NCBI GenBank assembly: GCA_030697705.1 | Contig: JAUYPE010000018.1 | Span: 1-50,241, forward strand | Origin: a bacterium | Lineage (GTDB): Bacteria > Patescibacteriota > Minisyncoccia > Sungbacterales > HO2-52-23 | DNA: 50,241 bases | Reading direction: 5' to 3' | In this document: positions 3,981 to 49,413 of the stretch, in pieces | How positions within the stretch are numbered: the first letter of the stretch is position 1 | How the letters are laid out: every line of letters begins with the position of its first letter | The notes under the pieces: generated by a model | Told to the model about the DNA's origin: nothing | What the model saw: only the letters and a program-made list of their open reading frames with translations | Database searches by the model: none | Made by a program: the position numbers and the translations under genes

Positions 3981-3994
3981 TATTGCCCTATCCT

Positions 3995-4387
3995 ATGCGT
4001 ATTATCCGCAATAAAAAATCGTTGTTTGTGGATGCGCGGGGGGCGATTACGAATCTCTTGGACGAGGGTGTCGTTATCAAGAGTATCTTGCTGACCTCAT
4101 CGGTCTCCGGTGCGATTCGAGCAAATCATTACCACAAGAAAGATGCCCATTATGTCTATCTTGTCTCCGGAAAAATGGAGTGGCGTGAACGGTCGGCTGG
4201 GGATATGGGTGAGGGGGTCACTGAAATCTTACAGCCGGGCGATATGGTGTTCACGCCGCCGATGACCGAGCATGCGTCGTGCGCGCTTGCACCCTCGGTC
4301 TTTCTCGCGTTTGCCACCGAGCCGCGGAGTCGTGAGGAGTACGAAGCGGATACCGTGCGCGTATCGCTTATTGAAGAAAAAGCATAA
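3995..4387 (+). CDS. Cupin-domain protein
   Basis: ANHYHKKDAHYVYLVSGKMEW...ILQPGDMVFTPPMTEHA. Confidence 0.75.
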   Translation: MRIIRNKKSLFVDARGAITNLLDEGVVIKSILLTSSVSGAIRANHYHKKDAHYVYLVSGKMEWRERSAGDMGEGVTEILQPGDMVFTPPMTEHASCALAPSVFLAFATEPRSREEYEADTVRVSLIEEKA

Positions 4388-4388
4388 A

Positions 4389-4547
4389 AGACCTACTGCA
4401 CAATAACCTTTCTGCTACGATGATGATTTTTCGGCTGCAAACAACTCATCGTTCGTCAATGAATACCACGTATTCACCTCCTCACGCTTCGTTGTTTTCG
4501 CACGAAAAATCATCATCTCGCTACGAAAATTATTGTGCAGTAGGTCT
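4389..4547. mobile_element. Palindromic MITE-like element, copy 1 (159 bp)
   Basis: Perfect 18-bp TIR agacctactgcacaataa / ttattgtgcagtaggtct; inner stems 4419-4433 / 4503-4517 and TGAATAC-CAC-GTATTCA; second same-length copy at 49255-49413. Confidence 0.85.
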
Positions 4548-4565
4548 AACGAATTTTTCTTGACC

Positions 4566-5558
4566 ATGATGCGCCGTCTGCTTGCCCATGTCTATCATCT
4601 GGGAGTCGTGCATCCCTACTGCACGGTGCGGGCGTGTTTTCCCGTGTGGTATGGGGTGGCGAATAAAGAGGGAAGGATGCTCTTTGAAAAAAATAAGCCG
4701 AAACTCAATCCCGTGCAGGAGCGCATCGTTGCGGATCTCAATCACAGCGGCATCGCCGTCTCGTCGCTGGAAGATCTCTTTCCGGGAGATTCACCGTTGG
4801 TGATATTGCAGGAAGCGGCACGCCGTTATGAGCGCGACGGGGTAGTCAAAAGCGGCAAACAATTCTTGCAGTTTTTCTGGGATCTGAAGCCGACGCTTGA
4901 TCTTGAAAATCCCTTTATCAAAATGTCGCTTGACGCACGTGTTCTTGATACCGTTAACTCCTATCTTCATATGTGGGCGAAGTTTTATTTTTTTTCGCTC
5001 AACCGGACGGTGCCGATTGCCGCGGGTGCCAAGCCACAGCAATCCCAGCGCTGGCATCGCGATCCGGAAGATAAAAAACTGTGTAAAATATTTTTGTATT
5101 TGAATGATGTGGACGCGACAGCGGGGCCGTTTATGTATGTGAAAGGATCGCATTACGGCGGACGATGGCGGCATCTTTTCAGGCAACGGCCGCCGCACGG
5201 AAGCCGCGCGCCCTACGGCGAGGTGGAGCGGCGCGTTCCATCCGGTGATATTCTTGCGGCTACGGGTCGTGCGGGGACACTTATTTTTTGCGATACCAGC
5301 GGACTTCACAAGGGCGGGTATGCCACTGCCAATGAGCGTATCATGTATACCGGCGTGTTTGCCTCCGCGGCGTCGTACAAGTACACCGCCAATCCCGCGA
5401 TTGTCTATCCGGACGGCGATAAACAAAAAAACACCCGCGTTGATTTAAGCCCCGCGGCACGGTATGCGCTGGTGCCGTCCCGACAGAGTATGGTTCAGAA
5501 AATAGAAAAGCGCATCAAGGCGGGCGGAAAAGACGAGATGATGCCCGCCGAGGGATAA
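4566..5558 (+). CDS. PhyH-like Fe(II)/2OG dioxygenase
   Basis: QSQRWHRDPEDKKLCKIFLYLNDVDATAGPFMYVKGSHYGG and CDTSGLHKGGY; upstream ORF start lies inside the repeat, so ATG 4566 preferred. Confidence 0.75.
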   Translation: MMRRLLAHVYHLGVVHPYCTVRACFPVWYGVANKEGRMLFEKNKPKLNPVQERIVADLNHSGIAVSSLEDLFPGDSPLVILQEAARRYERDGVVKSGKQFLQFFWDLKPTLDLENPFIKMSLDARVLDTVNSYLHMWAKFYFFSLNRTVPIAAGAKPQQSQRWHRDPEDKKLCKIFLYLNDVDATAGPFMYVKGSHYGGRWRHLFRQRPPHGSRAPYGEVERRVPSGDILAATGRAGTLIFCDTSGLHKGGYATANERIMYTGVFASAASYKYTANPAIVYPDGDKQKNTRVDLSPAARYALVPSRQSMVQKIEKRIKAGGKDEMMPAEG

Positions 5559-14434: not shown

Positions 14435-14500
14435 CAGGAACTTTGTACGCTCTCGCGGAAGAGTAGGGACACTCACCTTTCTATGCCTATCATACGAACA

Positions 14501-15445
14501 ATGAAAGACAATATATTTCGCACCTTTTGCCGTGCCCGGAATTTCCATCCGGTCTGGTATCATGTGCTCAACCGCGAGGCGAAAAAAAAATGGCGCGCGC
14601 ATCAGTCCGATACCCCCGGTGTACCTATCCAAGAGCTCATCTCATCACTTCACCGCGATGGTGTTGCCGTTACCGATGTAGCAACTCTTTTTTCCGAAGA
14701 GCTGTTTGATGCAGCGCGGCGGTTTGCCACGGAATCTTTGGCGCGTCCGGAAATACAGGAGGAGATAAAACGGCATGAGCGCATGATCATTGAGCGTGTC
14801 AAGAGTGGGGGACAGCGCAAGGGGGCAAAAAAATATCTCAAGGATTTTATCGTTGAACCGTACGGGTCAACGACCGATGAAAGAATACCTGATATCAAAA
14901 ATCCCTTTATCCGGATGAATCTTGACGAGCGTGTTATTCGTATCGCTGGTTCGTATATGGGGATTGCGCCCAAGTTGCGGGGGTTTTCCCTCCGTCAGAC
15001 GCTTCCGGTTCCTGCGGGTGCCGCGGAATATTTTTCTCAACGCTGGCACCGCGATCCGGAAGACAGAAAGATGCTCAAAATGTTTATTTATATGACGGAT
15101 GTCTTGGACGAGCAGTCAGGTCCTTTTATTTATATTAAGGGATCCCAACCCGGCGGGGTGCGCGGGAATCTGTTTCCCCAGCATCCACCAGCCGCAACAT
15201 ACCCGGAAGCGGGAGCGGTGGAGAAGGTAGTTCCACGGGAGTTGATGAAGGTGTGTCTGGGGCGCGCTGGCACCGTTGTTTTTGCTGATACCAGTGGGTT
15301 GCATAAGGGGGGATACACGATCTCTGCGCCGCGTCTTATGTATACGGGAACATTTTATTCCCTTGCCTCGCTTACGCGTCATCATCTTGCCGTGCGGGAC
15401 GACGTATCTGCCTTGTCCCCACTTGCGCGCTATGCGCTGGAATAG
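14501..15445 (+). CDS. PhyH-like Fe(II)/2OG dioxygenase
   Basis: SQRWHRDPEDRKMLKMFIYMTDVLDEQSGPFIYIKGS; ADTSGLHKGGY. Confidence 0.75.
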   Translation: MKDNIFRTFCRARNFHPVWYHVLNREAKKKWRAHQSDTPGVPIQELISSLHRDGVAVTDVATLFSEELFDAARRFATESLARPEIQEEIKRHERMIIERVKSGGQRKGAKKYLKDFIVEPYGSTTDERIPDIKNPFIRMNLDERVIRIAGSYMGIAPKLRGFSLRQTLPVPAGAAEYFSQRWHRDPEDRKMLKMFIYMTDVLDEQSGPFIYIKGSQPGGVRGNLFPQHPPAATYPEAGAVEKVVPRELMKVCLGRAGTVVFADTSGLHKGGYTISAPRLMYTGTFYSLASLTRHHLAVRDDVSALSPLARYALE

Positions 15446-16950: not shown

Positions 16951-17916
16951 ATGTTTTCTCGTATCACGACCAGTGTATCCATGCGCAGTGCGCACCTCTT
17001 TTTTTGGGTTCGCTCAAGAAAACCCGTGTGGTTATATGCGGTGAACGGAAAAAGCAGGCGCGCAAAGAAAAAAAACCCGACTGCGCTCTCCGTCGTGCAA
17101 CAGCGCATCGTGACGGATCTTGGGCGCGACGGCATTGCCGTAGCGCATCTGGACGAATTTTTCCCCGCACGCGGGCTTCTGGAAAATTTTCAACAATACG
17201 TCGCGGATGGCAGGGCGCGCGCGGAGACACGAACGCATAAATCGTTTCTTAAAAATCTGTGGGATGCGGTGCCGCTTGTTGACTTCGGGAATCCCTTTTT
17301 CGTGCTGGCACTGGACGATGCTATTCTTGCGACCGTCAACGAGTATATGGGACTGTGGTCGTATTTTTTTTATCTGACGCTCAATGTGACCACACCCGTG
17401 TTGGAGGGGAGCGAGGCGGTTCAGTCCCAGCGGTGGCATGGAGATCCGGAGGATAGAAAGATGTGCAAGGTGTTTTTGTATCTGACGGATGTGGATGAGG
17501 GATCGGGACCCTTTACGTATGTGCGGGGAAGCCAGTCCGGCGGGCGCTGGCGGCATCTGTTTCGGGAGCAGTCGCCGCGCGGTATCATGCCGCCGGAGCG
17601 TCCTATTAAGGAGATCGTGCCTTCCACCGATATTATGACCTGCACAGGTAAGGCGGGAACCATTATCTTTTGCGATACGAGTGGTTATCATAGGGGAGGA
17701 TATGCCACGAAAAAAGAACGGATTATGCTCACGATGGGATACTGCTCGGGCGCAAGTCCCTATCCCATGCGCGTTCGTTTCTCCGAACTTTTGCGGGAGC
17801 AGAGAGAATACCGGGCATTAAGTCCTGCGGCGCGCCATGCCCTTACCTTTGCGCCCGGACATACCACTTCTTATTTTTTTAGAAAAATAAAGCCCCGCTT
17901 CAAATACGGTGCCTAG
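16951..17916 (+). CDS. PhyH-like Fe(II)/2OG dioxygenase
   Basis: QSQRWHGDPEDRKMCKVFLYLTDVDEGSGPFTYVRGSQSGGRWRHLF; CDTSGYHRGGY. Confidence 0.75.
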   Translation: MFSRITTSVSMRSAHLFFWVRSRKPVWLYAVNGKSRRAKKKNPTALSVVQQRIVTDLGRDGIAVAHLDEFFPARGLLENFQQYVADGRARAETRTHKSFLKNLWDAVPLVDFGNPFFVLALDDAILATVNEYMGLWSYFFYLTLNVTTPVLEGSEAVQSQRWHGDPEDRKMCKVFLYLTDVDEGSGPFTYVRGSQSGGRWRHLFREQSPRGIMPPERPIKEIVPSTDIMTCTGKAGTIIFCDTSGYHRGGYATKKERIMLTMGYCSGASPYPMRVRFSELLREQREYRALSPAARHALTFAPGHTTSYFFRKIKPRFKYGA

Positions 17917-49254: not shown

Positions 49255-49413
49255 AGACCTACTGCGCAATAACCTTTCTACTGCACTTATGCTTTTTCGG
49301 CTGCAAACAACTCACCGCTCGTCAATGAATACGCTGTATTCATCTCCTCGCACTTCATTGTTTTCGCACGAAAAAGCATAAGTTCGTAACGAAAATTATC
49401 ACGCAGTAGGTCT
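49255..49413. mobile_element. Palindromic MITE-like element, copy 2 (159 bp)
   Basis: Same length and layout as 4389-4547; TIR agacctactgcgcaataa / ttatcacgcagtaggtct; inner stem 49285-49299 / 49369-49383. Confidence 0.85.

Follow-up and report, generated by a model that had tools for sequence, protein, structure and literature searches.

Background

Members of the ISL2 group of the IS5 family and their MITEs are recognised by ends of about 18 bp beginning with AGACC, by 3-bp duplications of the form ANT and by a full-length partner of the DDE_Tnp_4/HTH_Tnp_4 type, and all of these features recur in the palindromes described here and their full-length partners. Unlike ISL2-group MITEs, however, our palindromes contain no transposase gene remnant that we could recognise, their body is a conserved hairpin core, and the same core is found on other types of ends. 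In ordinary MITEs the ends are kept and the bodies decay, whereas in the present family the ends vary strongly and it is the hairpin core that is conserved across the Patescibacteria. With ERIC, RUP, NEMIS/Correia and the Rickettsia palindromic elements the family shares a size within the range of 100-200 bp, an almost wholly palindromic sequence and a stable hairpin (in part after PMC10969869), yet it differs from them in its phylum-wide core, its differing end types, its two conserved asymmetric loops and its almost fixed length, and from the Rickettsia elements also in being mostly intergenic. The REP/BIME sequences of RAYT transposases likewise form hairpins with conserved imperfections and strand asymmetry, but the palindromes of the Patescibacteria are far longer and have target duplications and terminal inverted repeats. 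Finally, homogenisation of the arms and inversion of the centre between copies are reminiscent of template-switch (quasipalindrome) hotspots, which represent a mutational process rather than a family and to which one of the asymmetric loops, loop 1, is resistant here.

Results and discussion

The window, the whole stretch of 50,241 nucleotides that was analysed (contig C22), belongs to a genome of 858 kb in 30 contigs. The original prediction placed two palindromes of equal length at 4389-4547 and 49255-49413, and both indeed measure 159 bp and pair without gaps, position i with position 160-i. Their features are as follows.

4389..4547, + strand (the orientation with module TTTCTRCTGCAAT on the left): MITE copy 1, 159 bp; covariance model 152.5 bits on + and 83.8 bits on -
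4389..4406, + strand: left terminal inverted repeat of copy 1, AGACCTACTGCACAATAA; agrees at 16 of 18 positions with AGACCTACTGCACGATTA, the left end of an autonomous element in genome G006
4530..4547, - strand: right terminal inverted repeat of copy 1, reading AGACCTACTGCACAATAA on the - strand; complements the left end perfectly; the G006 right end is AGACCCACTGCACAATTA
4407..4420, + strand: module X, left half of internal loop 1, CCTTTCTGCTACGA in copy 1, consensus TTTCTaCTgcaA; among the most conserved columns in 102 copies
4516..4530, + strand: module Y, right half of internal loop 1, consensus TTTCGTWACGAAAA; from orientation count and conserved columns
4419..4433, + strand: left arm of the inner 15-bp stem of copy 1; four compensated differences from copy 2
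4503..4517, + strand: right arm of the inner 15-bp stem of copy 1; from the pairing comparison with copy 2
4460..4476, + strand: apical hairpin of copy 1, TGAATAC-CAC-GTATTCA, from the sequence; an exact inversion of the central 43 bp, which surround the apex, occurs among related copies
49255..49413, + strand: MITE copy 2, 159 bp, 84% identical to copy 1
49285..49299, + strand: left arm of the inner stem of copy 2, ACTTATGCTTTTTCG; from the pairing comparison with copy 1
49369..49383, + strand: right arm of the inner stem of copy 2, CGAAAAAGCATAAGT; from the same comparison

Watson-Crick pairs are formed at 56 of 78 paired positions in copy 1 and at 54 of 78 in copy 2, and the predicted RNA folds of -68.5 kcal/mol (z = -14.5) and -60.4 kcal/mol (z = -10.0), respectively, lie far below those of shuffled sequences. 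The inner stem reads GATGATGATTTTTCG/CGAAAAATCATCATC in copy 1 and ACTTATGCTTTTTCG/CGAAAAAGCATAAGT in copy 2, and all four substitutions are matched on the opposite arm, as had been claimed. The wider description of the stem differences as fully compensatory holds for this stem but not for the element as a whole: the 25 differing sites comprise six compensated pairs, six pairs that are paired in one copy only, three differing pairs that are unpaired in both, and the apical loop, which had rightly been given as CAC in one copy and GCT in the other. On the + strand every one of the six half-changed pairs is A-C, which makes it G-U on the - strand. Copy 1 begins directly after the stop codon of a cupin gene (3983-4387).

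The palindromes form a widely distributed multi-copy family with AGACC...GGTCT ends and 3-bp duplications, to which autonomous elements with such ends can be matched. About 16 copies or fragments are present in this genome, and a covariance model built from 20 gapless copies, which align across 159 columns with zero gaps, gives matches in 92 of 384 genomes (79 genera) from a sample of the class and in 38 of 380 from a sample of the phylum. Copy numbers based on the model are lower bounds, because no more than seven candidates were scored in each genome, and the E-values of the model are rough. Because the copies in distant genomes carry the same internal motifs, the model does not simply match any hairpin, and within the window it matches copies 1 and 2 only. 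Many copies were found in G002, G004, G010 and G011, which belong to the same family as the window's genome, and named records with copies include Candidatus Azambacteria, Liptonbacteria, Portnoybacteria and other Parcubacteria. Copy length is nearly always 154-165 bp, and the copies are mostly intergenic as judged with a simple ORF finder rather than a gene caller. Some copies of this genome lie at contig ends, so that the family probably breaks the assemblies of these metagenome genomes. The viral contigs of IMG/VR gave zero matches to the X...Y pattern, and a search of Rfam at gathering and permissive thresholds returned no real family, its sole match, MIR869 (20.8 bits against a cut-off of 330), being a chance hairpin similarity. 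In the open-access literature that was searched, we found no description of the family.

Evidence for mobility comes from the flanks and from the ends. Most copies end AGACC...GGTCT, and among 94 copies with AGAC...GTCT ends 41 are flanked by identical 3-bp sequences, as compared to a mean of 11.3 and a maximum of 22 in 1000 shuffles; repeat lengths other than 3 bp show no enrichment. The duplications have the form ANT, with AAT and ATT dominant, in agreement with the ISL2 group and with the target ANT reported for bacterial IS5 transposons (PMC4482050). The window copies themselves lack an exact duplication (flanks aaa/aac and ttt/att), but like the family they are short and non-coding, with perfect 18-bp ends in copy 1. 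Three autonomous elements have similar ends:

L147, 1445-2501: ends AGACCTGTTGCACAATAG, duplication TAT; protein matching Pfam DDE_Tnp_4 (5e-26) and HTH_Tnp_4 (2e-6)
L154, 1390-2417: AGACC-type ends, duplication ATT
L149, 1397-2440: duplication ATT; protein matching Pfam DDE_Tnp_4

The mobilising partner may belong to the ISL2 group of the IS5 family, with which the DDE_Tnp_4 and HTH_Tnp_4 matches fit. A mobile palindrome with AGACCTACTGC ends had been proposed, and the duplications together with these elements bear this out. The full-length element that was expected to share the terminal repeat has its nearest counterpart in G006, another genome of the same family, where the left end AGACCTACTGCACGATTA occurs at four contig ends and the right end AGACCCACTGCACAATTA at four, the latter agreeing with copy 1 at about 15 of 18 positions, and where the element encodes an apparent start and end of an IS5-type transposase. 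In contrast, there is no sign in support of the idea that a transposase recognises the hairpin, as the cognate IS5-type elements have ordinary ends of about 18 bp. The G006 left end CCCTTTCTGCTATGATGAG resembles module X. We also considered whether the MITE arose from an insertion sequence through a simple internal deletion; this is unsupported, because the G006 right end shows no module Y.

No transposase had been seen in the window, and we noticed none among the flanking genes and repeats that were examined, which are part of its gene content; nor was an autonomous element with the ends of the window copies found in this genome. The IS5-type element L138 of this genome has a second end type, AGACCATTACAAAACTC, which recurs exactly on a palindrome of G002 (L093, 223-384). 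Matching autonomous elements were not found for the end types AGAGCC, AGGGAC and GAGGTC; the zero matches obtained with the pattern GAGGTCATCTNNAAANYTC for a GAGGTC partner are no evidence, as this pattern misfits the known copies. In L015 an oxidoreductase-like gene has its start codon directly after an isolated left end that includes TATGAT (421-457), which suggests that the end may supply a promoter there, and at L002 (1501-1503) the upstream reading frame stops at a TAG formed at the junction with the first bases of the element.

Across the class the terminal repeats vary widely (AGACC-, AGGGAC-, AGAGCC-, AGAACC-, GAGGTC- and others), each being matched on both arms. The most conserved columns in 102 copies are internal, TTTCTaCTgcaA opposite TTCGnnaCGAAA and TTTnGgCt opposite TcgCtcnAAA, and these two sets of columns correspond to two asymmetric internal loops with fixed spacing between covarying stems. 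Loop 1 has X on the left and Y on the right in 113 of 132 copies, which are all that can be scored, and is never flipped or symmetrised. Module Y, TTTCGTWACGAAA, is itself a short local palindrome of 13 bp that is kept across the phylum. Probably the core is a cargo able to persist on IS5-type ends of several kinds. L011, a copy of 53 bp with AAT on either side, matches, apart from one compensated pair, a copy 1 that has been shortened by deletion between its two CGTAGC repeats. Several copies (L091 421-621, L095 367-567, L093 426-625, L032 1501-1701, L080 313-516, L081 383-592, L082 324-532 and L120 329-617) have an extra hairpin, AGACGCGAGG...CCTCGCGTCT or ...CCCGTCT, nested at similar positions in the right arm, as if another palindromic element targeted the hairpin; in L009 (1501-1712) the right arm contains an inserted hairpin of the CCGCCAGAGGCGGA...TCCGCC type.

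What, then, keeps the arms paired? In the 20 gapless copies 34 of 57 pairs show two-sided changes, as compared to a shuffled mean of 16.5, with none of 500 shuffles reaching the observed value, and the number of two-sided change cells is 126 as compared to 31.7 in shuffles; when the partner is slid by 1-3 columns, only 6-12 pairs show such changes. The covariation claimed from the two window copies is therefore genuine and, as would be expected of a structured RNA, exceeds chance and relatedness. Template switching between the arms of inverted repeats, a described process (PMC8604942, PMC8794818), can however also cause covariation, and it is seen directly to act on this family: of two copies from a single genome, L017 and L020, one has its central 43 bp exactly inverted in place relative to the other, a single base being the only further difference, and symmetrised modules occur in L022, L094 and L096. 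Since template switching yields the same pattern and its footprints are present, covariation alone is insufficient to establish selection. Close copies differ by one-sided changes, and with distance two-sided changes rise while one-sided changes reach a plateau of about five per copy pair.

The mismatches that remain in the stems show a strand bias. Isolated stem mismatches on the reference strand are A-C in 79 and G-T in 27 cases, with one copy per genome the numbers are 37 and 12 (p = 0.0005), and by column they are 34 and 10. As A-C on the reference strand is G-U on the other, this suggests selection on folding of the bottom strand, on which G-U would be tolerated as in a structured RNA, and it leads us to reject the reading of the covariation as an RNA of the + strand, on which the stem mismatches are A-C and not G-T. 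One-strand cytosine deamination is an unlikely cause of the bias, since there is an excess not only of G>A (60, as compared to 34 C>T) but also of T>C (105, as compared to 44 A>G) and the copies lie in both orientations relative to the neighbouring genes. This orientation is random (35 and 29), which also makes a read-through mRNA unlikely as the selected molecule. With RNA parameters the bottom strand has the better fold in 112 of 116 copies, with DNA parameters in 109 of 116, and its average advantage is 13 kcal/mol, but this advantage is not independent evidence because the loops are shared by descent. G-U makes up about 3% of pairs, which is low for an RNA. In combination, the tests favour, without proving, selection on one strand, and they hint that this strand is kept foldable for an unrecognised job performed in the hairpin.

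We therefore consider it likely that the element is a non-autonomous palindromic MITE that is mobilised in trans by IS5-family transposases and whose conserved hairpin core is kept by fold selection together with template switching. DDE transposases of the DDE_Tnp_4/HTH_Tnp_4 type, fitting the ISL2 group, would recognise the ends of about 18 bp and move the element, with duplication of a 3-bp ANT target. The body would be a hairpin core in which two asymmetric internal loops keep their sequence and spacing while the stems change with compensation, and pairing would be kept in part by a need for the bottom strand to fold, an RNA hairpin being the most likely form, and in part because template switching during replication carries mutations from arm to arm. 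A further step, for which we have only modest expectations, is that a structured module of this kind, a bottom-strand RNA hairpin, spread in the Patescibacteria as a MITE body and acquired different IS5-type ends by symmetric change of both arms.

A rival account, in our view unlikely, would dispense with fold selection and attribute all compensation in a functionless core to template switching by arm homogenisation and spacer inversion. The 43-bp inversion and the symmetrised copies are textbook footprints of that process, and the succession of one-sided by two-sided changes looks as if mutations were later copied to the other arm, although selection in two steps predicts the same. Yet switching should erase asymmetric loops, whereas loop 1 is asymmetric and unflipped in 113 of 113 scorable copies, no columns are better conserved across the phylum than those of the loops, and the excess of A-C over G-T among unrepaired mismatches is not obviously predicted. 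The original prediction had gone straight from covariation to selection on folding rather than copying; this step was too simple, but selection on folding finds support in the asymmetric loops and the A-C bias. Conversely, the core may be a structured bottom-strand RNA with a function of its own that is carried on borrowed transposon ends, a possibility that we put forward tentatively: covarying stems, conserved internal loops, nearly fixed length, the better fold of the bottom strand and a strand-specific tolerance of wobble pairs in both core and ends would fit such an RNA, while the missing Rfam family, the random orientation to genes and the low G-U content do not.

The asymmetric modules might instead be DNA-binding sites for a host protein or regulator, with module Y resembling a dimeric operator. 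Its conserved 13-bp palindrome and the precedent of small bacterial palindromes (REP/BIME) as protein targets (PMC2817692) speak for this, but it is an improbable explanation of the core, as both the A-C bias of the stems and the conserved partner X would be left unexplained. We give hardly any credence to an element of the REP/RAYT type that a tyrosine (Y1) transposase would move in the form of a single-stranded hairpin. Strand asymmetry, a hairpin with conserved mismatches and intergenic position would agree with it; terminal inverted repeats, the 3-bp duplications where none would be expected, DDE elements whose ends are of this kind and a length four times that of a REP contradict it. A functional core would represent an unrecognised structured element in a phylum of reduced genomes. 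Should the core be functionless, the family would document template switching in nature with unusual clarity, through compensation that RNA finders would misread as selection. Either way it is a ready test set for separating the two.

Other features of the window

A second, nested intergenic palindrome at 1958-2099, with outer arms TAGGACTTACGCACT.../...AGTGCGTAAGTCCTA and an inner hairpin TGTCATTCCCCTG...GGGAATGACA, has no match to the covariance model and looks like another small mobile palindrome. Three similar genes encode products of 320-341 aa (ORFs 4533-5558, 14483-15445 and 16951-17916; similar stretches at 4898-5200, 14890-15102 and 17280-17582), and ORF 4533-5558 and ORF 979-1950 show weak matches to PhyH (phytanoyl-CoA dioxygenase).
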